A stretch of 23,017 nt of DNA, from IMG/VR virus record IMGVR_UViG_3300027896_000239, positions 1 through 23,017 of that record. The stretch is one strand, 5' to 3'. Both the position numbers and the translations under genes were made by a program. Shown here in pieces: positions 2,493 through 23,017 of the stretch. The first letter of the stretch is position 1, and each line of letters starts with the position of its first letter. The notes under the pieces are model-generated. The model did no database searches. It was not told the DNA's origin and saw only the letters and a program-made list of their open reading frames with translations. The stretch comes from a virus.

Positions 2493-4295
2493 ATGGCAAC
2501 ACAATCAGAATTAAAAAGAATTGCAGATATAAAATATATAGCTAGAGATTTTGATACTTTAGTAACTGTTTTGAAGAATCATTTAAAATATCAATTTCCA
2601 GATAGTTATAAAGATTTTTCTGACACTTCTAGTGGTATAGCATTTCTTGAATTAGTAGCTTATGTTGGTGATATATTAAATTTTTATATAGATAAACAAT
2701 TTAATGAATTATTTTTAAGTACTGCACAAGAAAGAAAAAATTTAGTTGCAGTTGCTAAAAATTTAGGTTATCAAATAAGAGGAAAAAGTGCATCTAATGC
2801 TCAATTAAATGCTACAGTAACATATCCAGCGACTGGTTCTGATACTGCTAATTTAGAGTTTGTAGTTTTAAAGGGATCACAAGTAACAACATCTAATGGA
2901 GTAAAATTTGAAATAGTTAATGATATAGATTTTTCTTCTACGTCTAATAGAACTGTTTCAGTAAATGGTGCTAATACAACAGTAAGTATAACTGGGAATA
3001 CTGCTGTAAATGGTGAAACAAAACAAATATTAGTTGATGTACAAGATCCAGTTTCTTTTTATAAGATAACATTGCCAGATCAAGATGTACTTGAAATAAC
3101 TTCTGTAACTTCTTCTGATTCTAATACTTGGTATCAAGTAGATTATCTTGCACAAGAAAATCAATATCATGGAGTTCAGAATGATTATTCTACTAGTTCT
3201 TCCGTACCTTTTATTTTAACATTAAGAAAAGTACCAAGACGATTTATAATAGAAAAAAATGAAAATAATATAACAACTTTGACTTTTGGATCAGGAACTA
3301 TATCTACTTCAGATGATGATTTTATTCCGAATCCTTCTGACTTTTTGTTGCCTTATACAATACGTGGTATAGAAGATGGCTTCACTATACCAGATATTGA
3401 TCCAGAGAATTTTTTGAATACGGGTACTTTAGGCGCTGCTCCAAATCATACTACTATGACGATAAAATATAGAACTGGTGGTGGGTTAGCATCTAATGTA
3501 GCTTCTAATGCTATACAATATTTTAGCAACTTACAGTATAGGTTTGTTATTAGTACGTCATTATCTGCATCTCAAAGAAATAGAGCTATAAGTTCTTTAT
3601 CTATAAAGAATCCTTATCCTGCAATTGGTGGACAAGATGAAGAAACAAACGAAGAAATAAGGCAATATGCTTCAAAATCATTTGCTGCTCAAAATAGAGT
3701 TGTAACAATACAAGATTATATTGTTAGATCTATGACTATGCCATCTCAATTTGGTGCACCATTTAGAGTACAAGCTAGAAGAGATTTTAATAGTGATTTT
3801 GGTATACAAATAATAGTTATAGGAAGAGCTCTTGACGGAACATTATGTAAGACTCAAGACCAATTAAAAATAAATTTAGGTAATTATTTGTCTAAATTTA
3901 AACCAATATCTGATAGTCTAAATATAACAGATGCAAATATAATTAATTTAAGAGTATCATTTGGTATAGTAGTAAATACTGCGTATAATAGAGATCTTGT
4001 TTTAGGAAACTGTTTGATAATGTTAAAAGATTATTTTAAAATTGATAATTGGCAAATGGGAGAATCTATAGTGTTATCAGATATAAGTTCTGAGTTGATG
4101 AGAATACAAGGAGTCATGTCTGTAACGAATATTGGAATAGATAATTTAGTAGATATTTTTAACGGAAATACATATTCTAGTTATAATTTTTCTATAGCTG
4201 GTCATATGAAAAATAATATTTTAACTTGTGATCAAGATGAAATTTTTGAAGTAAAATATCCAGATCTTGATTTGATCGGTGGAATTGTTAGTTAA
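2493..4295 (+). CDS. Baseplate wedge protein, gp6/J-like
   Basis: This 600-residue protein begins with the N-terminal pattern of T4 gp6-like wedge proteins: IARDFDTLVTVLKNHL, then SSGIAFLELVAYVGDILNFYID, then NELFLSTAQERKNLVAVAKNLGY (about residues 16-94). The central part is beta-rich, with a FGSGT-like turn near residue 270. The later PYPAIGGQDEETNEEIRQYA (about 371-390) and RVVTIQDYIVRS segments are the conserved core of baseplate J-like proteins. The protein dimerises around the baseplate to form the ring that fires sheath contraction, as known for the family. It follows the gp25-like gene by 14 bases, with a weak GAG Shine-Dalgarno. I see no truncation; the length is close to that of T4 gp6. 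Confidence 0.9.
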   Translation: MATQSELKRIADIKYIARDFDTLVTVLKNHLKYQFPDSYKDFSDTSSGIAFLELVAYVGDILNFYIDKQFNELFLSTAQERKNLVAVAKNLGYQIRGKSASNAQLNATVTYPATGSDTANLEFVVLKGSQVTTSNGVKFEIVNDIDFSSTSNRTVSVNGANTTVSITGNTAVNGETKQILVDVQDPVSFYKITLPDQDVLEITSVTSSDSNTWYQVDYLAQENQYHGVQNDYSTSSSVPFILTLRKVPRRFIIEKNENNITTLTFGSGTISTSDDDFIPNPSDFLLPYTIRGIEDGFTIPDIDPENFLNTGTLGAAPNHTTMTIKYRTGGGLASNVASNAIQYFSNLQYRFVISTSLSASQRNRAISSLSIKNPYPAIGGQDEETNEEIRQYASKSFAAQNRVVTIQDYIVRSMTMPSQFGAPFRVQARRDFNSDFGIQIIVIGRALDGTLCKTQDQLKINLGNYLSKFKPISDSLNITDANIINLRVSFGIVVNTAYNRDLVLGNCLIMLKDYFKIDNWQMGESIVLSDISSELMRIQGVMSVTNIGIDNLVDIFNGNTYSSYNFSIAGHMKNNILTCDQDEIFEVKYPDLDLIGGIVS

Positions 4296-10175: not shown

Positions 10176-11048
10176 ATGAATTTAAATGCACTTGATTCAT
10201 CAAATGATGTTGTAAATACATATTTAGATGTACCTAATGTATTAACTACTCTAAGCACTACTGCTGGAGCTGCAGCTAGTGGAGTTTGGTTGATGGTTTT
10301 GAACTCTACTAGTGCAGGGCTTCTTCCAAGAGTTGATTGCAAAGGACTTCTTTCTAATATTGGTATTAGTGCTGCATTTAGAATGTTAGCTAATTATTTT
10401 TATGGAACTGGAACATATATAATTGATGCTAATAATGGTGTAACACAAAATACTACAATTAAAGCCATTCAATTCTCAAGACCATATATGAATGAAGGTT
10501 TGTATAAAGGAACTATTACAGCAGTTATAAATGCAGAAGCTGCAGGAGCATTAACATCTATTGATGTTCCTGATCAAAATTCTGAAGGTTCTGCATTTGG
10601 TTTAACTGGTGCTATGGTTGATATGTGGAATCCTACAAGTAGATGGGGAACTGTATTCTATGATTATGGTGTGATAGTATTTAGTAATAGTCAAGGAACA
10701 ACTGGCGCAATATTTTCTGCAGGTGGTGCTAGTGGATTTAATTGGGGTGCTACTGCTATAAATGGTATTTATCTTTCTAGTTTAGCTTATAAAACAAGAA
10801 ATATATTAAAACGTTCAATATATTTTTGTAGAGCAAAAAATAAAGAGTTTAATTATACATTTAATCCAACAGCTAGACAATCTAATGGGACTGTATTACA
10901 ATCTTTATCTGCTAATCCTACAACTTATATAACAACTATTGGCCTATATAATGATGCAGATGAATTAATAGCTTTAGCAAAAGTTAGTCCAGCTAAAAAG
11001 AAGAGTTTTAATTCAGAAGCAGTATTTAGAGTACAACTTGACTTTTAA
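10176..11048 (+). CDS. Short tail-fibre scaffold protein with YITT-GLYN C-terminal module
   Basis: This 290-residue protein carries at its end (about 247-290) the module TTYITTIGLYN, a D-EL-x-AL-AK strand and a final V-x-LDF strand. The same module closes the genes at 12384 and 13700. Before it is FYDYGVIVFSN (about 165-175), the counterpart of FYDLGIVILDN in the gene at 12384 and YYDLGIVAIHG in that at 13700. An upstream AIQFSRPYMNEGLYKGTITAVIN segment resembles VISIKKEKYGDFIRANTLSAI in the gene at 13700. No LamG or other large insertion lies between the two parts, so this looks like the bare scaffold. It probably connects to the baseplate or forms a short fibre. A GGAG Shine-Dalgarno is present. 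Confidence 0.7.
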   Translation: MNLNALDSSNDVVNTYLDVPNVLTTLSTTAGAAASGVWLMVLNSTSAGLLPRVDCKGLLSNIGISAAFRMLANYFYGTGTYIIDANNGVTQNTTIKAIQFSRPYMNEGLYKGTITAVINAEAAGALTSIDVPDQNSEGSAFGLTGAMVDMWNPTSRWGTVFYDYGVIVFSNSQGTTGAIFSAGGASGFNWGATAINGIYLSSLAYKTRNILKRSIYFCRAKNKEFNYTFNPTARQSNGTVLQSLSANPTTYITTIGLYNDADELIALAKVSPAKKKSFNSEAVFRVQLDF

Positions 11049-11059
11049 TAAGGCGAATA

Positions 11060-12383: not shown

Positions 12384-13700
12384 ATGATAACACAAGATCA
12401 ATTATACGCAAGAAGAGATAATCCAGATACATATCAACCTTGGGATGGTGTGTTAGCTGGATTTGATAAAACTGCTAAAAGAATATTTTTTGTATTACAA
12501 GATGCTAGAGAAACTGAGACTCCGTGGATTAATTCTGCTTCTTCTTGGACTGATATAGCCTTTGATTATGTTGATTTATTTGATAGTAAATATCATAATG
12601 TTATGTTTGCTTGGTGTATGAGTTCTGTTTTAACATCACCAATAAATGGAACTTATCAAGATGTAATTAGAAAAGGATTAATTGGTGTTGATAATTTTAT
12701 ATTTTATCCAATGGATGACGGATATTCATCAATATCTGGTAAGTCTACTCCTTTTACTTTTGCTTTTGATAATGCTGGTAATCCCACTAATTGGTCATTT
12801 GGTGGTTATTATCCAGATAGAGATTCTGCAACTTCAAAATCTACAAATCCAAAAGCAATTAAATGTTTTAATGGAGAAATAGAAAGTATTACAATTTGGG
12901 ACACAGTTTTAACTGCTGATGCTGTTTTAAATAGCAATTCTTTAGTTCAAAGTGATGTTAATGGGACTTGGGGTGCTGCTGCAAGAGGTGATCATCCTTT
13001 AACTAGTAGTAGTTTAGCAAATTATAAAAGTAATTGTGTTGCTCATTTTCAAATGAGAGAAGGAACTTTAACAAATAGACTAATAGTAGATCAAGCAGGA
13101 ACTACAGTGTCTGGTAATCAAACTGCTCCTACAACTGGGCATACATTATACTTTATTGGTGGTAATTCTAATTTATTTGGTTTATGGGATTATATTATAT
13201 ATGATGTTGCTCAAGGTAATCCAACTATAAGTTTTTCAAATGGATATTTACAATTTGTTGATGAAGCTGGATTAATAAGAAATATAGGAACTATTTTTTA
13301 TGATTTAGGAATTGTTATATTAGATAATGAATACGTTAATTCTATTACCAATACTGCTTCTGGTTTACCCTTTTTACAAACTATATCAACTTCTGGAATG
13401 GGTTTTGCTAATTTAACTGGTTTTAATATTCATTACGTTAATTATGATAGTGTAAATACATTTCAAAGATTAATTATGACTACAAAAGCAGAGGGTGATG
13501 AATTTAACATAACGCAAAATCAAACAGGTATTATAAAACAAACTGGTGAGCAATTATTAACTACTAATCCTGGAACTTATATCACAACTGTTGGTTTATA
13601 TAATGCCGCAAATGAATTACTTGCAGTTGCAAAATTAGATAGACCTATTAGAAAAGATGAAGATCATACAGTAACAATAAATATTAATATAGACTTTTAA
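12384..13700 (+). CDS. Tail-fibre protein, C-terminal-half type (LamG-like end plus YITT-GLYN module)
   Basis: This 438-residue protein lacks the anchor segment seen in neighbouring fibres. It shows late LamG-type strands: WTDIAFDYVDLFDSKYHNVMFAW with a following ING turn (about residues 53-91), and IKCFNGEIESITIWDTVLTADAV (about 160-182). A linker follows, then FYDLGIVILDN (about 304-314), and the closing module TYITTVGLYN-x-x-x-ELLAVAKL to a final IDF. Its start lies one base after the stop of the previous gene, in another frame, with no Shine-Dalgarno, so it is probably made by termination-reinitiation. The stop overlaps the next start (TAATG). Likely it folds with the 11060 product, which would provide the anchor. 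A hydrophobic overlapping frame near 12682 is a shadow. Confidence 0.7.
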   Translation: MITQDQLYARRDNPDTYQPWDGVLAGFDKTAKRIFFVLQDARETETPWINSASSWTDIAFDYVDLFDSKYHNVMFAWCMSSVLTSPINGTYQDVIRKGLIGVDNFIFYPMDDGYSSISGKSTPFTFAFDNAGNPTNWSFGGYYPDRDSATSKSTNPKAIKCFNGEIESITIWDTVLTADAVLNSNSLVQSDVNGTWGAAARGDHPLTSSSLANYKSNCVAHFQMREGTLTNRLIVDQAGTTVSGNQTAPTTGHTLYFIGGNSNLFGLWDYIIYDVAQGNPTISFSNGYLQFVDEAGLIRNIGTIFYDLGIVILDNEYVNSITNTASGLPFLQTISTSGMGFANLTGFNIHYVNYDSVNTFQRLIMTTKAEGDEFNITQNQTGIIKQTGEQLLTTNPGTYITTVGLYNAANELLAVAKLDRPIRKDEDHTVTININIDF

Positions 13701-15781
13701 TGGCAGACGCATCATACATAGCTCCTTATATAGGTTCACAAGATTTAGAACCTTATCATAGTAGACCAAAGAATAGATATCTTAATTCAACAGTTGCATT
13801 AAAACGTCTTGATGCTATAACTGACATTCATTTTGATAGAGCAACTGTAAATTATATAGGAAAATTAGTAGCTCCAGAGCCAACGTTATCATCTTGGACA
13901 GTTCATACAACTAGTTCTAATTCTGCTTATGCTTTTGCAATAGGACAGATAATGTTAACAAGAGATATATTACCAAAATTACCTATTACACCTACTAGTT
14001 CTTTGACAGCATTTAATCTTATTTTTAGAAATTCTACTACAGCTTTAGATATAACAAATGATCCATTGTTAGGCTTAGGAAAAATTGGTGTTATATCTAT
14101 AAAGAAAGAGAAATATGGAGATTTTATAAGAGCCAACACTCTTTCTGCTATTACTAAAAATCAACAATATATTAAAGATGCAGGATCTGCTTCTAAATTA
14201 CATGGGATAATGGTTCAAGAAGGACCTGGTTTTGTTTCTTTAACTGGTTCTTCTTATTTTGCTGCTATTGATGCTTGGACAGGATATAGTAGTGGAATAA
14301 TGTTTCCAGATGGTCTTAATTGGGCTTGGAATTCTTATCTTGCTGGTGGAGATACTAGTGGTTGGATATCTTATGGAAATCCTTCTTTTTATTTAACTTA
14401 TATTCCTTTAAGATGGTGGGGTGTTTTAGTTGGAAATGGTGGTACTTATTCTGGTGTTGGCGTTACTGGAACTTTGACATCTAATAAACTATTTTGTGTT
14501 GCATCATATGGAAATACATCTGGTGCAGCTAATGATATTGTTTTAGTTGCTCAAACTGCTTCTACTTCTATTACTGCTAATACTGATGGAGGTGGTGGCG
14601 GTATTAGAACTCTTGTTGCTAATTTTACAACTCCAACAACAGGAACTGTAACTGCATTTTTTATGTGTAGAAGTGGAGCTAGTACATCACGTTTAGATAT
14701 GTTAGAGATAAGAGAACAAACAGATTGGACATTTCAATTATGGCAAAAATCTAGTCCTACTCAAACTGATGGATCAACTATAGCTAGTAAGGCTCTTCAT
14801 TATATTAATGGAATTGGTTGGAGTATGGGAAGAGTTGCCGGAACACCTAGACTTGTTATGACTTTTTGGGATGATCAACAAAACTACGATCAATTAGCAT
14901 CTCCTGTTGGAGTTAATATAAACACGGGTAAATGGCAATTATTAACATTTTCATTTAGTAGAAGTGCTGGTGCTAAATTATATATTGACACTACATTAGT
15001 AGACCAAAGAAATCCTTGGACACTTGCTTCTATGATTAATTCTCATCAATTTAATATTGGTGTGAATATGGATCAAGCTGGTTTTTATAATGGTAATATA
15101 GGTGAGATGTTATGGATTAAAGAATATGCAGTTTCTCAACAAGACATTATAAACACGTATACATATGGAATGCCAACTGGTTATCATAATGCAGTAACTG
15201 TTGCTCATTATTATTGGATGGGTAATAGTGATTCTACTAATTATATGACAAATGTAGGATATAGTGACGCTCCTACTTTAGTACATTATGGATTAGGTCG
15301 TTTTCCATCTCAATTAAATGCTCTTTCTGCTGGATATATTTATTATGATTTAGGAATTGTTGCTATTCATGGTCCTTCTACTGCTTTAATTGATGCTATA
15401 TCTTCTGTTAGTTCTGTTAATTATCAATCATCTATAAAGATGACAACATTAGCAGCTTTTTGTAGTGCTCAAACAAGAGAATTAAATTATTCTACAAATG
15501 ATACTGCTTTTTATATTCCATCAATTACAGCAGATCCAACTTTTGAATCTACTACAGCATTAGATGATTTCGTATCAAGTGGATTTCAATGGGGTCAATG
15601 GCCAGCAACTGCTGATCATTCGAAATATTATCTTAGAGAAACACAAAATCGTACACCTTATATTACAACTGTTGGTCTTTATAATGAAGAAAATGAATTA
15701 TTATTAATCGGAAAATTAGCTCAGCCTATACGAAAACCAAAAAATATTCCAATAACTATAAAAGTTCAATTTGACTTATAA
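13700..15781 (+). CDS. Long tail-fibre/adhesin with carbohydrate-binding-like and LamG domains
   Basis: At 693 residues this is the full-length version of the fibre design. Residues 1-165 form an anchor region ending GVISIKKEKYGDFIRANTLSAI. Residues about 180-345 look like a carbohydrate-binding jelly roll: AIDAWTGYSSGIMFPDG, many Gly/Ser/Thr strands, then SRLDMLEIREQ. Residues about 345-490 are LamG-like, with WQLLTFSFSRSAGAKLYIDT from W412 and GFYNGNIGEMLWIKEYAVS near 461. The closing part holds YYDLGIVAIHG and the YITTVGLYN module from Y654 to the final FDL. LamG and CBM-like folds bind sugars, so this is the best candidate for the host receptor-binding protein. No Shine-Dalgarno is seen; translation is likely coupled to the previous gene. 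Confidence 0.75.
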   Translation: MADASYIAPYIGSQDLEPYHSRPKNRYLNSTVALKRLDAITDIHFDRATVNYIGKLVAPEPTLSSWTVHTTSSNSAYAFAIGQIMLTRDILPKLPITPTSSLTAFNLIFRNSTTALDITNDPLLGLGKIGVISIKKEKYGDFIRANTLSAITKNQQYIKDAGSASKLHGIMVQEGPGFVSLTGSSYFAAIDAWTGYSSGIMFPDGLNWAWNSYLAGGDTSGWISYGNPSFYLTYIPLRWWGVLVGNGGTYSGVGVTGTLTSNKLFCVASYGNTSGAANDIVLVAQTASTSITANTDGGGGGIRTLVANFTTPTTGTVTAFFMCRSGASTSRLDMLEIREQTDWTFQLWQKSSPTQTDGSTIASKALHYINGIGWSMGRVAGTPRLVMTFWDDQQNYDQLASPVGVNINTGKWQLLTFSFSRSAGAKLYIDTTLVDQRNPWTLASMINSHQFNIGVNMDQAGFYNGNIGEMLWIKEYAVSQQDIINTYTYGMPTGYHNAVTVAHYYWMGNSDSTNYMTNVGYSDAPTLVHYGLGRFPSQLNALSAGYIYYDLGIVAIHGPSTALIDAISSVSSVNYQSSIKMTTLAAFCSAQTRELNYSTNDTAFYIPSITADPTFESTTALDDFVSSGFQWGQWPATADHSKYYLRETQNRTPYITTVGLYNEENELLLIGKLAQPIRKPKNIPITIKVQFDL

Positions 15782-16193
15782 TCTTAGAAAAATATTAAAA
15801 GAGATATATAAAAAAATTCAAAATGCTTCAGAAGCTGGTAAGCGTACTTTGATAGCATATGATGGTAGGTTGTATGATATGAATGTTTCTTATTTAAAAA
15901 ATGACATAGAAACACATCTTGGTGTAATAAGAGCAGAATATCCTAACACTTATAAAAGAATAGAAGATGATAGTCCGCATGAAACAATGCAAAAAGCATT
16001 AAAATTAGGATTTATTAGAGCTAATTTTTGGGGTCAACATGAAGCACAATTAGAATTTGATTTTTTGACCGAAAAAGCTAAGATGACTTTATATAAATTA
16101 TTAAAAGAAAAAAATATTCATCAAATAGTTTTAGATGAAAAAGGTAGAAGTTATTCTATGTATATAGACGATTTTATAGAAAAATATTTATAA
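15771..16193 (+). CDS. Unknown protein of 140 residues after the fibre block (TTG start uncertain)
   Basis: I do not recognise a family. The longest reading starts at a TTG that overlaps the end of the fibre gene by 11 bases and has no Shine-Dalgarno. The first ATG is near residue 37 (MNVSYLKND), but the preceding residues look protein-like (LRKILKEIYKKIQ, RTLIAYDGRLYD), so a non-ATG start is plausible. The middle has a helix-turn pattern, SPHETMQKALKLGFIRANFWGQ, followed by EFDFLTEKAKMTLYKLL, which reads as a small alpha/beta fold. A lysine-rich C-terminus ends the protein. It lies before the promoter-like element, so it is probably the last gene of the structural transcript. It could be a late regulatory or morphogenesis protein; this is unsupported. 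Confidence 0.6.
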   Translation: MTYNLRKILKEIYKKIQNASEAGKRTLIAYDGRLYDMNVSYLKNDIETHLGVIRAEYPNTYKRIEDDSPHETMQKALKLGFIRANFWGQHEAQLEFDFLTEKAKMTLYKLLKEKNIHQIVLDEKGRSYSMYIDDFIEKYL

Positions 16194-16198
16194 ACTAG

Positions 16199-16227
16199 TT
16201 TACTTTTTACAATATTTATATTATATT
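16199..16227 (+). promoter_or_regulatory. Promoter-like element A before the polymerase region
   Basis: TTTACT (16199-16204) and TATATT (16222-16227) are separated by 17 bases, fitting a sigma-70-type -35/-10 pair. The same two hexamers at the same spacing, with TAG before and TTA after partly shared, occur at 20942-20970. The element begins 5 bases after the stop of the 140-residue gene and would start transcription near 16234, giving a leader of about 200 bases to the polymerase gene. TAnnTTT-type promoters of Bacteroidota would also partly fit, but Shine-Dalgarno use in this genome argues against that host group. Confidence 0.5.
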
Positions 16228-16298
16228 TAAATACAACATAAACGAGAGGTTTTAGACACATCAATGTTCACTTAATAAATAAAACAATTATTTTTAAA

Positions 16299-16400
16299 AT
16301 GGCTGAAGAAGCAAAACTTGCTATCGAAAGTAGCTTGGATCGTGTAATTTACTTTTGTACAAAAATAAAATTCTACAAAAGTAAAGATTTAGTCTTATAA
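16299..16400 (+). CDS. Possible 33-residue upstream ORF in frame with the polymerase
   Basis: An ATG at 16299 opens a 33-codon frame beginning MAEEAKLAIESSLDRV and ending KSKDLVL at a TAA (16398-16400). It is in the same frame as the polymerase gene, with only 12 sense codons between this stop and the polymerase ATG. The first 17 codons use CTT, ATC, AGC, TTG and CGT, unlike the TTA/AGA-heavy genes around it. There is no Shine-Dalgarno. It overlaps the structured segment entirely, so the base pairing may explain the unusual composition. It could be a leader peptide, a remnant of a longer N-terminus, or chance. I favour the RNA reading. Confidence 0.2.
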   Translation: MAEEAKLAIESSLDRVIYFCTKIKFYKSKDLVL

Positions 16401-16426
16401 GGGCTTCTTCTTGTTCTTCGAACAAA
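16299..16426 (+). ncRNA. Candidate structured leader RNA upstream of the polymerase gene
   Basis: This segment folds into a closed structure on paper. An outer 8-bp stem pairs GAAGAAGC (16305-16312) with GCTTCTTC (16403-16410). Inside are a small hairpin GCUAU-CGAAA-GUAGC (16320-16334) and a perfect 12-bp hairpin, TTTACTTTTGTA (16348-16359) with TACAAAAGTAAA (16374-16385) around a 14-base loop. A 6-bp hairpin TTGTTC-TTC-GAACAA (16411-16425) follows, 11 bases before the polymerase ATG. There is no U-run, so it is not a plain terminator. It could be a free phage small RNA or a cis element controlling polymerase translation, which lacks a Shine-Dalgarno. I match it to no known RNA family. Confidence 0.4.
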
Positions 16427-16436
16427 AATTACTATA

Positions 16437-17768
16437 ATGGTTAATAAACTTTCAATTTCACTCACATATAATAAACATTACAACATTAAATCAATGATGT
16501 GTTTCGATGGGAGTAATGTTTTCGATTACGCAATAGAATCATTAGAAAATTCATTTTTATTAGATTTATTCAATAGAAATGATGAAATTGTTGTGTTTGA
16601 TATAAAACAATTTTTGAAATTATACTGTCATAAAAATATAGAATTATGTCCAGCTAAAGTAAAGAAATTATATTCTGTTAAATTAGCTCATCATTTAAAA
16701 GATTCTAATAATAAAAATATAGAAATAACTGATATATTTGATAATCAATATATAAAAGCTAATATTGATAGAATAAAATCATTTATTAAAATATATACTC
16801 TAGACAAATATTTAGATTTGATTCCAGATTATATACTACGAAATTATAATATAGCTTGTGCTACAGCTTTATATAATTATGAATTCAATATAGATAATAT
16901 ATATTATTATCATGATTTAAAATACAGTATATACATGCTAGCATTATGTGAACAAAATGGCATTAAATGTTTATCTAAAGATGTAAAGAATATAAATGGA
17001 TTTATATATCCAGATTATGAATATGATTCTACATACACAGGTAGATTACAAAATAAATATCCTATAAACCTCCAGAATCTTTCTAAAGATGATGTTATAA
17101 GGAAGCAATTAGTCTCTAGATATGATGGTGGTAAAATTTTATTAGCAGATTGGGATTCTATAGATCTTAGAGTATTATTTGCAATGGCACACGAGATGAT
17201 ATTCACACCAGATTTGCATTCAGAAGTAGCAAAAATAGTATTAGAAAAAAATATAATAACAGAAGAAGATAGAAAAAAGATAAAAGAGATAAATTTTAGT
17301 ATTGTATACAGTGCAGGATTAGATAGTGTAAGTCAAAAAACTGGAATACCTAAAGAAGAATTGATTGAATTGTTAAAGAAATTATTCATAAGATTTAATA
17401 ATGTAAAGAAATTTGTTGTGGAAACAAGAGATTTTGTTTTAAATAATGGATACGCGAAGTCTTATTTTGGTAGAAAACGATTTTTAAATAAAGATGAGAC
17501 AACTAAGTTTGTTAATTCTACTATTCAAATGACATCTGCTGATATATGTATGAGAGCTATAGATGGAATACAAAGTGAAATAGGTGATTTTCAATTTATT
17601 AAATTAATACCATACATAGTTTATGATAAATTAGCTATAGATTGTCATCCAAATTGGGTAGAAGATGGTGCAAAAGTTTTAAATAAATTAATGAGTTATT
17701 ATGCTCCAGGAAAATTAGGAGCAAAAGTGAATTTTCCTATTAAAATAGAATATAGAGAAACACTATGA
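16437..17768 (+). CDS. Family A DNA polymerase with variant motif C and decayed exonuclease domain
   Basis: Residues about 200-443 match the Pol I palm and fingers. TGRLQN (201-206) is followed by NLQNL; motif A is DWDSIDLR (238-245), with the metal Asp D238; motif B holds R279, K283, F287 and Y291, equivalent to E. coli R754, K758, F762 and Y766. GYAKSYFGRKRFL and a TSADI helix follow. Motif C reads VYDKLAID (395-402), with D397 kept but the usual VHDE changed to VYDK. The steric-gate Glu of motif A is Asp (D243). About 100 N-terminal residues resemble a shortened 3'-5' exonuclease: VFDIKQFLKLYCHKNIEL aligns to the exo II region, but the catalytic Asp is Phe and no DTE exo I motif is seen. 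It probably replicates phage DNA without its own proofreading. No Shine-Dalgarno precedes the ATG. Confidence 0.88.
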   Translation: MVNKLSISLTYNKHYNIKSMMCFDGSNVFDYAIESLENSFLLDLFNRNDEIVVFDIKQFLKLYCHKNIELCPAKVKKLYSVKLAHHLKDSNNKNIEITDIFDNQYIKANIDRIKSFIKIYTLDKYLDLIPDYILRNYNIACATALYNYEFNIDNIYYYHDLKYSIYMLALCEQNGIKCLSKDVKNINGFIYPDYEYDSTYTGRLQNKYPINLQNLSKDDVIRKQLVSRYDGGKILLADWDSIDLRVLFAMAHEMIFTPDLHSEVAKIVLEKNIITEEDRKKIKEINFSIVYSAGLDSVSQKTGIPKEELIELLKKLFIRFNNVKKFVVETRDFVLNNGYAKSYFGRKRFLNKDETTKFVNSTIQMTSADICMRAIDGIQSEIGDFQFIKLIPYIVYDKLAIDCHPNWVEDGAKVLNKLMSYYAPGKLGAKVNFPIKIEYRETL

Positions 17769-18256
17769 TAAAAGAATCTATGATAGACCCTTCTCCGTTT
17801 ACTCCTGATGATGTAATCTCTCATTATCATGATAGATCAGTTTGGGGTGAGCAGAGAAAAGAACCAAGACCAAGAGCATTGTCTAATAATAAAACATTAG
17901 AAAATTTATATAGAGTTCAACAATTGTATTATGATATAATGGAATTAGTTGATGATAAAATTAGAGAAAAATATGGACATGATGAAAAAAATCTAAAAGA
18001 AGTAAGATTGAAAATGCAAAATAGAGCAGATAATAAAGTTAGATCAGACAATCAAGGACAGTTATTTGTTCAGATAGGTAGACTTTATTACACTGGAAGT
18101 GCTAAAGAATATGAAAAATATTTTAATTCTACAAAAAAAGCATTTAATTCAGTCCTTAAAGAAATATCTAAAGAATTATCAGATACAATAAATGATAAAG
18201 CATTTGCGGAAGATGGAAAACCATTGAAATTAGATCAGTTACAGGAGAAAAAGTAA
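17765..18256 (+). CDS. Unknown helical protein following the polymerase
   Basis: I do not recognise this 163-residue protein. It is polar and highly charged, with a disordered-looking start (DPSPFTPDDVISHYHDRSVWGEQRKEPRPRAL) and then long amphipathic helices (LENLYRVQQLYYDIMELVDDKIREKYG, and a C-terminal STKKAFNSVLKEISKELSDTI). No cysteines or enzyme motifs are evident. Its ATG overlaps the polymerase stop (ATGA), and its own stop overlaps the next start (TAATG), so the three are likely co-translated. That could mean a replication accessory role, but nothing in the sequence shows it. Confidence 0.75.
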   Translation: MIKESMIDPSPFTPDDVISHYHDRSVWGEQRKEPRPRALSNNKTLENLYRVQQLYYDIMELVDDKIREKYGHDEKNLKEVRLKMQNRADNKVRSDNQGQLFVQIGRLYYTGSAKEYEKYFNSTKKAFNSVLKEISKELSDTINDKAFAEDGKPLKLDQLQEKK

Positions 18257-18673: not shown

Positions 18674-20401
18674 ATGAAGAAACAAGATATTACAGTATCA
18701 GTTGTGGTTTTAGCAGAAGGTGCACCTGAACAAGCTATAGACAAAACTTTAAAAGATATTTTTTCACAAACTTGGAGAAATATAGAAGCTATTGTTACAT
18801 ATACAAAAGGAAAAGATTTTGATGCAATGAAAGACAGATGGCTAACATTTCCAGCTAATATATTTTGGTGTGAGTGCGATAATGTTGGTGAATTGTTAGT
18901 TAAACCTTTTGAATTTTGTAAAGGTGACTATATTTTTTATAAAAGCGTTAATCCAATCATTTGGTACCCAAGGCATGTTGAGCACCATTTAGAAATGTTT
19001 GAAGAGTCTAGATTTGAAGGAAAATGGTCTTATTCTTTACTAGAGATGAAAGATGCTGGTGTTCAAGAACCAATGAATAATATTGGTTGGAGAATTGATA
19101 TGCCAAAAATTGAACAAGCATTATTTGATGAATTTTGTCATTCTAAAGATGTAAAAGTTGATTGGAACACATGTATAGCTCAACAAAATGGCGTAACACA
19201 ATTCGTTCCAGGATTACTTTTAAAAACTCTTAAAAATTACAGATTAGTTAATCCAAAAGAAATAACTATAACTTTTTATGTGTCTCAACAACAACAGCAA
19301 CAAGTTGTATTAGGTGCACCAGCAAATGATAATATTAAAGAAACAATAGCTGAAATAAACGGAGACATGATTATAACAAAATCATATCCAACTATTGTTG
19401 GAAATGTTCAATTTTCTGAAAGAAATAAAAATTTGTTAAGTCAAGTCAACGCAGACGAAGTTTTTAATATTGCTGTTAAGAGATCAATGGGTATGGGTGA
19501 TGTATTATTGACAGAACCTGTGATTAGAGCTCTTAAAAAGAAATATAAAAATGCAAAAATTAAGTTATTCACTACTGCTTATTCTACAGCAGATCAACTT
19601 GTTAAACTATTTCCTGCTTTAGATAGTTTTGAAATAATTGGACAAGATAAATTAACAACAGATTATTTATCAACAGTTGAAGGATTTAATCTTAAATTTG
19701 ATCTAGATTTATCGTATGAATCAAGACCAGGTGTTAGATATATTGATGGATATCTTGAAGTATGTGGATTTACAGAAGAATTACAAGAAGTAAATGGTGA
19801 ATTAGCTATAACAAGAGGTGTTAATGATGATGATTTAATTCCACAATTGAATTATAACAAAGAACCTATTATCAAAGAAAAATATATTTCAGTTGAATTA
19901 TTGGGTTCAGGATGGGGCGGTAAAGAATGGCCAGTTGAAAAATGGAATAACATATTAACAAAAATTAAAAATATGGGTTATAAATTTGCATATATTTCTA
20001 ATGTAAAAATGGGATTATATACGCAAAATGTAGATTATGTTAATACTGAAAATAATTTTAATACAGTTTTAAATTATGTAAAATATGCAGATTTTCATAT
20101 TGGAAGTGACGCTGGTCCATTACACATAGCATCTGCTTTTAATAAACCAACATTTATAATTTCTGGAGCAGCTCTATCTAAATATACTACGCCTTCAAAG
20201 AAAGTATTCTCTGTGTCAAAAGAAGGATTAGATTGTTTAGGTTGCAAACATAAGATTTTTTATGAACAAAATGGACCTAATTTAACATTTGTGCCTAGAT
20301 GTACAAATCCTAAACAATATGAATGTATGCAAGCTTTAGAAGTAGATTATGTTTTAAATAAATTTGAAGAATTTTTAAAGGTTAATAATATACAGGTGTA
20401 A
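18674..20401 (+). CDS. Two-domain glycosyltransferase: degenerate GT2 fused to GT9 (heptosyltransferase-like)
   Basis: Of the 575 residues, 1-200 have a GT2-like start (ITVSVVVLAEG, then IDKTLKDIFSQTWRNIEAIVTY, then FCKGDYIFYKSVNP). The DxD that should follow GDYIF is replaced by KSVN, so this half is probably inactive. A CAA-repeat-encoded linker with six glutamines (Q205-Q210) leads to a GT9 domain (about 265-575): SMGMGDVLLTEPVIRAL with G273-D276, SGWGGKEWPVEKWNNIL, and SDAGPLHIASAFNKPTFI with D479 and H484. A cysteine-rich tail (CLGCKH, then RCTNPKQYECMQAL) matches heptosyltransferase C-termini. GT9 enzymes add heptose or related sugars to LPS core from nucleotide sugars. In a phage this could remodel the host surface against superinfection; that role is inference. 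GAGGA precedes the ATG. Confidence 0.85.
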   Translation: MKKQDITVSVVVLAEGAPEQAIDKTLKDIFSQTWRNIEAIVTYTKGKDFDAMKDRWLTFPANIFWCECDNVGELLVKPFEFCKGDYIFYKSVNPIIWYPRHVEHHLEMFEESRFEGKWSYSLLEMKDAGVQEPMNNIGWRIDMPKIEQALFDEFCHSKDVKVDWNTCIAQQNGVTQFVPGLLLKTLKNYRLVNPKEITITFYVSQQQQQQVVLGAPANDNIKETIAEINGDMIITKSYPTIVGNVQFSERNKNLLSQVNADEVFNIAVKRSMGMGDVLLTEPVIRALKKKYKNAKIKLFTTAYSTADQLVKLFPALDSFEIIGQDKLTTDYLSTVEGFNLKFDLDLSYESRPGVRYIDGYLEVCGFTEELQEVNGELAITRGVNDDDLIPQLNYNKEPIIKEKYISVELLGSGWGGKEWPVEKWNNILTKIKNMGYKFAYISNVKMGLYTQNVDYVNTENNFNTVLNYVKYADFHIGSDAGPLHIASAFNKPTFIISGAALSKYTTPSKKVFSVSKEGLDCLGCKHKIFYEQNGPNLTFVPRCTNPKQYECMQALEVDYVLNKFEEFLKVNNIQV

Positions 20402-20937: not shown

Positions 20938-20941
20938 ATAG

Positions 20942-20970
20942 TTTACTTTTGACGAAAAATGTATTATATT
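20942..20970 (+). promoter_or_regulatory. Promoter-like element B, matching element A
   Basis: TTTACT (20942-20947) and TATATT (20965-20970) with a 17-base spacer repeat the hexamers and spacing of element A (16199-16227). The element begins 5 bases after a stop codon, as element A does. Transcription starting near 20977 would leave a leader of only about 10 bases before the ATG at 20987, which would cut into the AAGGA Shine-Dalgarno. The true start may therefore be a few bases earlier, or the element may have another role. Confidence 0.5.
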
Positions 20971-20986
20971 TATAAGGAATAAAAAT

Positions 20987-21238: not shown

Positions 21239-21357
21239 TGAGTAAAGAAGAAGTAGCATTAGAATTAACTAAAATATATTTTAAAAGTTGGGCTTCTGTA
21301 GGTCTTAAAGAATTAGAAGAAGTGTATTTTGGATTTTTAAATAAAATAAAGGAATAA
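21238..21357 (+). CDS. 39-residue small protein
   Basis: The ATG overlaps the previous stop (TAATG) and sits after a good Shine-Dalgarno (AGAGGAG). The peptide is mostly one amphipathic helix pair, beginning MSKEEVALELTKIYFKSW and ending YFGFLNKIKE, with tandem TAA stops (21355-21360). Small phage proteins with the pattern 'EE(I/V)A.ELT' and a terminal 'Y..FL..I' helix are familiar in phage early regions; that is my recollection only. The strong start signal and tight coupling argue that it is real in spite of its size. Confidence 0.65.
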   Translation: MSKEEVALELTKIYFKSWASVGLKELEEVYFGFLNKIKE

Positions 21358-21361
21358 TAAT

Positions 21362-21601: not shown

Positions 21602-21720
21602 ATTATTTCATAATTTATTGCGCATTGTGGACTATATATCTTTGTATTTGTATATATAGTTTATTTAGTAAAAATAAAATAGAAGCAATGTGGGACGAAA
21701 GCACTAAATTTTGGGATTAA
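21598..21720 (+). CDS. 40-residue single-pass membrane peptide
   Basis: The ATG overlaps the previous stop (ATGA). Residues 2-23 are strongly hydrophobic (YFIIYCALWTIYLCICIYSL), then a short basic stretch (SKNK) and a soluble tail rich in Trp and acidic residues (EAMWDESTKFWD). This is a single transmembrane helix with a positive flank, probably with the C-terminus inside the cytoplasm. The length is at the low end for holins. It could be a small inner-membrane effector, a superinfection-exclusion peptide or a lysis accessory. The function is unknown. No separate Shine-Dalgarno is seen. Confidence 0.5.
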   Translation: MNYFIIYCALWTIYLCICIYSLFSKNKIEAMWDESTKFWD

Positions 21721-21727
21721 AAATTAA

Positions 21728-23017
21728 ATGATTCATTTAATAGCTCGTTGTGGTATCGGTGATATTATATCTCACCTTGCAAGAATTGACGATATAAAAC
21801 AAAGATATGGAGATGAAGTCAAATTTTGGCTTGGTGGTTATAATGAAATACCAAAATTGTGTAAAGAATTGCTTAATTTCAACAAGATTGACGCAGAAGT
21901 AGTTAAAGGTTGGAATGCAATTCAACAGAATGACATGATTTTGAAATATGTTAAGAATAAAGCTGCAGATAAAGATGTCATTATAGACTTAAATTTTGAA
22001 TCTGATATATTCTCTAATAGAACTCCAGATTTCTATAAGTATGATATGAAGTTTCCATTCGATTATAACGGAGAAGCTTTTGATGATACTTTCTTTAAAA
22101 CAGGACAAATCATAGGTTTGCAGATAAAAACGACTACTGGAGCTCCAGATTTTGATCATGGTGGTCAAAGATTTTGGTCTATAGATAATTGGAAAAAACT
22201 TATAGACATATTAGTCAGAAATGGTTATAAGGTTGCTATATTCGGTGGAAAGAATGATAGTGGAGACATAAAAGAATCTGAAAAAGTTAAAATATATTGT
22301 GGAAAAATTAACATACAACAAACAATATATGCTATAAAACAATGTTCTAAATTTATTGGAACAAATTCTTGGATGTGGGAAGCCGCTGCATTTAGCGGAA
22401 TATCTACTATATGTTTATATTTTACAAATACTTTCTTTTTACCATTACATATTCCATTTAAATATTCAGATATTCACAAAAATTTATACATAGAAACAAA
22501 TCCAACAGTCACACCAGAAAAAGTTTTTAGTTCATTTAATTTTAATGAAGATGCTAAAATATCTGCTTGCATTATAACTCAAGACGAAGCTGGTTTATTA
22601 AATAGTTGTTTACAAAATCTAAAAGGATACGTAGATGAAATTGTTATTGTAGACGGTGGTTCTAAAGACAATACTGTAGAAGTTGCTAAAACGTATACAG
22701 ACAAAATATTTTTTAGACTATTTGACAATCACATGAATCAAAAGAATTTTGCATTAGAACACGCAACTTATGAATGGTCTTTAATTCAAGACACAGATGA
22801 ATATTATGAATATGGATTTTTGAATAATATGAAGAAGTATATTGCTCAAAATCCTACAGTAGACATGTTTTTAACTCCAAGAATTAATATCATAGAAGAT
22901 CTAGACGACGAATTAGTTAGAAAATATAATTGGAATGTGCAACCATTTTTTAAATGGATTAATTATCCAGATCCTCAAGAAAGATTATTTAAAAAATGGT
23001 TGCACATTCCAATTATA
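21728..23017 (+). CDS. Two-domain glycosyltransferase: degenerate GT9-like fused to GT2 (3' partial)
   Basis: The frame is open for 430 codons to the window end, so the gene is truncated there. Residues 1-255 look GT9-like: LIARCGIGDIISHLARI with G9, G11 and D12, then WSIDNWKKLIDILVRNGYKVAIFGG, then KFIGTNSWMWEAAAFSGI. In the last motif the expected D-x-G-x-x-H is N213-S-W-M-W, so sugar-donor residues are changed. Residues from about 278 are a GT2 of the WaaE/LgtF type: ISACIITQDEAGLLNSCL, DEIVIVDGGSKDNTVEVA with D309, QKNFALEHA, and the metal motif D355-T-D357-E, then YPDPQERLFKK. The GT2 half looks intact. The domain order is the reverse of the gene at 18674. The last 31 codons are inside an inverted repeat and may not be the true gene end. 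No Shine-Dalgarno is seen. Confidence 0.8.
   Translation, partial: MIHLIARCGIGDIISHLARIDDIKQRYGDEVKFWLGGYNEIPKLCKELLNFNKIDAEVVKGWNAIQQNDMILKYVKNKAADKDVIIDLNFESDIFSNRTPDFYKYDMKFPFDYNGEAFDDTFFKTGQIIGLQIKTTTGAPDFDHGGQRFWSIDNWKKLIDILVRNGYKVAIFGGKNDSGDIKESEKVKIYCGKINIQQTIYAIKQCSKFIGTNSWMWEAAAFSGISTICLYFTNTFFLPLHIPFKYSDIHKNLYIETNPTVTPEKVFSSFNFNEDAKISACIITQDEAGLLNSCLQNLKGYVDEIVIVDGGSKDNTVEVAKTYTDKIFFRLFDNHMNQKNFALEHATYEWSLIQDTDEYYEYGFLNNMKKYIAQNPTVDMFLTPRINIIEDLDDELVRKYNWNVQPFFKWINYPDPQERLFKKWLHIPII
22925..23017. repeat. Perfect 31-bp inverted repeat at the window end
   Basis: Bases 22925-22955 and 22987-23017 are exact reverse complements over 31 bp, with a 31-base spacer. The right arm ends on the last base of the window, so the repeat may be longer. 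Both arms lie inside the glycosyltransferase frame. The left arm encodes YNWNVQPFFK, part of a normal-looking protein. The spacer encodes YPDPQERLF, a motif expected in this GT2 type, but the right arm turns the protein into KKWLHIPII, where the family usually continues differently. This is the pattern of an inverted chimera or contig-end artefact, although a true palindrome cannot be excluded. Confidence 0.9.

Follow-up and report, generated by a model that had tools for sequence, protein, structure and literature searches.

The window, by which we mean the whole 23,017-base viral record analysed here, carries all of its recognised genes on the plus strand, in an order that runs from a tail module through a family A DNA polymerase gene to a series of small genes and glycosyltransferase-like genes (Table 1). 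Judged by the baseplate wedge protein, the nearest annotated phages are Flavobacterium phage immuto (36% identity) and Microcystis phage Mel-JY01 (34%), and with matches as distant as these the phage has no close relative in collections. Our analysis concerns the gap directly upstream of the polymerase gene, which sits at the change of module, where the tail genes give way to the polymerase. A sequence-only reading of the window had singled this gap out as the sole large one, and 16194-16436 is indeed the only clearly non-coding gap longer than 50 nt, the others of about 125 nt being filled by open-reading frames.

Table 1 Features of the window discussed in the text, in order of position.
Feature	Position	Strand	Remarks
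Baseplate wedge protein	2493-4295		Tail module
Last tail-side gene	15771-16193		Directly 5' of the gap
Non-coding gap, 243 nt	16194-16436		Flanked by gene 15771-16193 and the polymerase gene
Putative promoter, TTTACT-N17-TATATT	16199-16227	+	Inside repeated block TAGTTTACTTTT...TATTATATTTA
33-aa open-reading frame	16299-16400	+	In the polymerase frame; no Shine-Dalgarno
Closing stem GAAGAAGC/GCTTCTTC, 8 bp	16305-16312 with 16403-16410
Small hairpin GCTAT/GTAGC	16320-16324/16330-16334
Perfect 12-bp inverted repeat TTTACTTTTGTA/TACAAAAGTAAA	16348-16359/16374-16385		14-nt loop
Terminal 6-bp hairpin TTGTTC-TTC-GAACAA	16411-16416/16420-16425		9 bp on the minus strand
Compact family A DNA polymerase, 443 aa	16437-17768	+	Pfam DNA_pol_A, E 9.5e-37; phrog_17
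Third TTTACT-N17-TATATT site	16635-16663	-	Antisense within the polymerase gene, directed into the gap
Second putative promoter copy, TTTACT-N17-TATATT	20942-20970	+	Within the 49-nt gap upstream of gene 20987
Unlisted small open-reading frame, 39 aa	21238-21357		Fills gap 21239-21361; overlaps upstream neighbour
Unlisted small open-reading frame, 40 aa	21598-21720		Fills gap 21602-21727; overlaps upstream neighbour

The two small frames that account for the other gaps overlap their upstream neighbours by 1-4 nt; codon use backs the 39-residue frame and not the 40-residue frame, which would encode a small membrane-protein-like peptide. The gap upstream of the polymerase had also been described as richer in G and C than its surroundings, which is true of 16299-16410 (31% G+C, against 20-25% in its neighbours) and untrue of the gap as a whole (24.7%, against 28.9% for the window), the first 105 nt being AT-rich at 18% G+C. 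As had been claimed, no Shine-Dalgarno sequence precedes the start codon at 16437; most genes that do not overlap a neighbour have GGAG/AGG-like sites. No intrinsic terminator, that is a G+C-rich hairpin followed by a run of T, is present in the gap on either strand, and ARAGORN returned no tRNA or tmRNA match.

Motif C of the polymerase reads VYDK rather than VHDE. The first 100 or so residues of the protein have no profile match and are not confidently modelled, and codon use is poor over roughly the first 25 codons of the annotated open-reading frame, so that the annotated start is doubtful and the true start may lie downstream of 16437. This uncertainty is one of the points in favour of a coding reading of the gap, in which the 33-residue frame, placed in the same frame as the polymerase and separated from it by one TAA, would be a small gene or the decayed N-terminus of the polymerase; its first 16 codons, moreover, score like those of genes. 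Against shuffles, however, the 33-residue frame reaches only p = 0.17 for its codon score and p = 0.05 for its length, it is without a Shine-Dalgarno sequence or a protein match, and continuing the translation past the stop yields no improvement against the polymerase profile, the residues so gained modelling at a pLDDT near 30. The frame is probably not a gene, and we hold the coding reading to be very improbable. A further candidate, an exonuclease domain encoded in frame upstream of the polymerase start, was rejected, there being no Pfam exonuclease match, no gain in profile score and a poor model.

At the upstream end of the gap the promoter-like element named by the sequence-only reading was confirmed as TTTACT-N17-TATATT, and the same arrangement was found again upstream of gene 20987, where 20938-20986 is the only other promoter-sized gap. 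The flanks of the two plus-strand sites are 74% identical, and when the two gaps were compared over 37 nt their best match had 29 identities (29/37), which none of 300 shuffled pairs reached. Three sites of this form occur in the window where 0.04 would be expected. The spacing of the two hexamers falls within the 16-18 nt of sigma-70-type promoters, with 9 of 12 consensus positions matched, and as other sigma-70-like sites near the gap are no commoner than in shuffled sequence, the argument rests on the recurrence of the promoter and not on its match to the consensus. It is this recurrence that supports a promoter-led and probably untranslated stretch before the polymerase gene, the part of the sequence-only proposal that stood. 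The promoter at 16199-16227 would start a transcript near 16234, which would carry an untranslated leader of about 200 nt into the polymerase gene. We therefore read the gap as the promoter and untranslated leader of a polymerase operon, with a probability of roughly 0.75. The third site, on the minus strand, lies in coding sequence and is without most of the block common to the two plus-strand promoters, and as a promoter it may be a chance occurrence.

The most distinctive feature downstream of the promoter is the 12-bp inverted repeat, which, as first described, is perfect; it is the longest perfect hairpin in the window, and 0.15% of shuffled gaps contain one as long. Within its arms are two copies of TTTACTTTT in opposite orientation, a 9-mer which is also found at the left of both plus-strand promoters. 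The window contains six copies of TTTACTTTT where 1.5 would be expected, and four of them are inside the two promoter gaps (292 nt together). As the symmetry of the hairpin dictates its second copy, the link to the promoters rests on one common 9-mer. Because the arms are inverted copies of a promoter 9-mer, a DNA control element is favoured at least as much as an RNA. On the simplest reading, the inverted repeat at 16348-16385 would be a DNA element made of two inverted TTTACTTTT copies, at which a host or phage regulator might bind and so tune transcription into the polymerase gene. We put this forward tentatively, as an interpretation of the gap as promoter and control region with the repeat as operator that falls somewhat short of even odds; its observed part consists of the recurring promoter block, the inverted repeat and the common 9-mer. 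If true, it would show the point at which the replication genes of an AT-rich phage are turned on, and would supply a promoter signature for this phage group.

An external precedent for a DNA operator was found by scanning IMG/VR for TTACTTTTGTA...TACAAAAGTAA, which matched six contigs. In five of the six, prophages unrelated to this phage, the near-identical repeat separates two divergent genes, of which one is a Cro/YdaS-like regulator; as these five represent one prophage lineage they count as one precedent, not five, and the prophage repeat is a precedent for a DNA operator rather than homology. The likeness to a CI/Cro-type prophage operator thus consists in nearly the same inverted repeat, but there the repeat lies between divergent regulator genes, whereas here no regulator gene was recognised in the window, nor was there a match to an HTH or repressor gene among the neighbours scanned. 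A similar comparison applies to sigma-70-type phage promoters accompanied by an operator-like inverted repeat, such as those controlling early or middle operons, which share with the gap hexamers 17 nt apart at two gene starts and an inverted repeat near the promoter; here, however, the repeat lies 120 nt downstream of the promoter and not over it, and no repressor or activator gene is known. Also against the operator reading, the TTTACTTTT motif is not above expectation among relatives, and an operator accounts neither for the fold of the minus strand described below nor for the absence of a Shine-Dalgarno sequence before 16437.

Two other views of the repeat were rejected. The TACTTTTG arms do not fit a Bacteroidota-type promoter (TAnnTTTG), as judged by eye no -33 TTTG lies at the right distance, and the genes of the window use Shine-Dalgarno sequences. 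The hairpin weakly matched a Chondrocystis plasmid (E 0.01), which raised the prospect of a conserved element, but a flank scan of 85,000 genomes gave 34 hits spread over many phyla, as expected from chance in AT-rich DNA.

The 8-bp closing stem, the small hairpin and, 11 nt short of the ATG, the 6-bp hairpin, which together with the 12-bp hairpin had been taken for a structured leader, are all present. As a plus-strand RNA the leader nonetheless folds weakly, with z-scores of -1.64 (16230-16436), -1.78 (16234-16436) and -1.27 (16234-16470). The core at 16299-16428 reaches z -2.9, falling to -0.55 once the 12-bp hairpin is removed, when 29% of shuffles fold as well, so that on this strand no measurable contribution comes from the closing stem or the small hairpin. 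The multi-part plus-strand structure of the earlier proposal is therefore not borne out: the 12-bp hairpin is its one component clearly above chance, and folding is stronger on the minus strand. Rfam, which had been suggested as a check of the gap as an RNA, gave no match: nothing in the window reached a gathering score in Rfam 15, and in a permissive search of the gap the best match had E 2.7, far below the gathering score of that family. A group I intron, considered because a TAGTC segment resembles an S element, was rejected, the complementary GACTA being absent and Rfam showing nothing.

These folding values bear on the idea that the gap encodes a cis-acting RNA leader on the plus strand, with a hairpin before the ATG that controls translation of the polymerase. 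Such a leader has a precedent in T4, whose DNA polymerase represses its own translation by binding an RNA hairpin operator of gene 43 (PMC3014915), and it would fit the promoter in front, the ATG without a Shine-Dalgarno sequence, the nearby terminal hairpin, a 12-bp hairpin above chance and the z-score of the core. As in T4, a hairpin lies upstream of the start codon of a phage DNA polymerase, but the T4 enzyme belongs to family B and this one to family A, the T4 loop is UAAC while the loops here are UUC and 14 nt long (PMC3014915), and here the hairpin has no Shine-Dalgarno sequence to occlude. The weak structure of the whole leader and its return to chance without the 12-bp hairpin also speak against an RNA leader, as does the finding that, among 54 distant polymerase genes with a measurable upstream region, only one has a perfect upstream hairpin of at least 10 bp. 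We regard control by a plus-strand leader as rather unlikely.

The minus strand gave the stronger signal. Over 16296-16428 it folds at z -4.75, a value matched by none of 200 shuffles, and its z-scores of -4.6 to -4.75 compare with about -2.9 on the plus strand. In a tiling of both strands (410 tiles, 820 tile-strand values) the minus-strand tile at 16299 had the lowest value of all (z -5.25) and its plus-strand counterpart ranked seventh, ranks that are inflated because this tile was placed by hand after the structure had been seen. Removal of the 12-bp hairpin leaves z -2.3 (p about 0.02) on the minus strand. On this strand the closing stem is prolonged, beyond a 6-nt bulge, by a 6-bp helix that includes one G-U pair. 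The advantage of the minus strand is due to two pairs, one in the closing helix and one in the terminal hairpin, that are C.A mismatches on the plus strand and G.U pairs on the minus. The values are suggestive that, if the gap encodes an RNA, the minus strand fits better than the plus. Two plus-strand tiles inside tail genes, 10491-10602 and 14523-14634, fold similarly low (z -4.4 and -4.7), hence such values also occur in coding DNA.

Counter-transcribed RNA control of replication genes is best known from plasmids. By analogy with plasmid copy control, a promoter at 16663-16635 could drive a structured antisense RNA over the polymerase start, folding in 16428-16299 and limiting polymerase synthesis; the likeness lies in a candidate antisense promoter within a replication gene and in a predicted RNA that would cover its leader in folded form. 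The minus-strand fold, the structure that it keeps without the 12-bp hairpin when the plus strand keeps none, and a third promoter-like site directed into the gap, of a form so rarely expected in the window, argue for such an RNA. Every recognised gene, however, is on the plus strand, the lowest-scoring tile was a chosen one, the candidate promoter has the shortcomings given above, and no terminator-like site or relative was found. We consider antisense control distinctly unlikely; if true, a replication gene of a phage would here be under the control of a counter-transcribed RNA. A replication origin, in which a transcript would prime unwinding at an AT-rich, hairpin-bearing site beside the polymerase gene, would suit a location bordering the replication module, the promoter, the hairpin and the AT-rich first 105 nt, but GC skew shows no change of sign at the gap and neither iterons nor an initiator gene were seen nearby, making an origin highly improbable.

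Comparison with related sequences was confined to distant ones. Searches for homologues of the gap by blastn (phages and plasmids), by exact 21-mer in IMG/VR and with a covariance model gave weak matches only (E 0.19 or worse). The covariance model, built from the single minus-strand sequence and scanned against 137 loci and 10 whole records, returned a meaningful E-value for itself only. For the gap, the polymerase and the adjoining genes the searches returned no relative above about 30% protein identity: the polymerase and the genes at 15771-16193, 17765-18256 and 18674-20401 gave no close relative in IMG/VR or GTDB genomes, and a single-sequence search of GTDB genomes with the polymerase found no relative. 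An alignment-based search with the polymerase recovered 80 loci at about 30% identity or less, too distant to be of use for aligning leaders; polymerase relatives in phages and IMG/VR are altogether no closer than this, and relatives of the baseplate protein share 26-36% identity only.

Two repeats elsewhere in the window were recorded in passing. At the very end of the record, within a glycosyltransferase-like gene, a perfect 31-nt inverted repeat (22925-22955 and 22987-23017, 31 nt apart) is probably artefactual, produced by fold-back during amplification or assembly, and the last bases of the record are accordingly untrustworthy. Three tail-fibre-like genes have in common a 136-nt 3' end (10914-11049, 13566-13701 and 15647-15782) at 63-71% identity, which looks like a duplicated or swapped C-terminal module.
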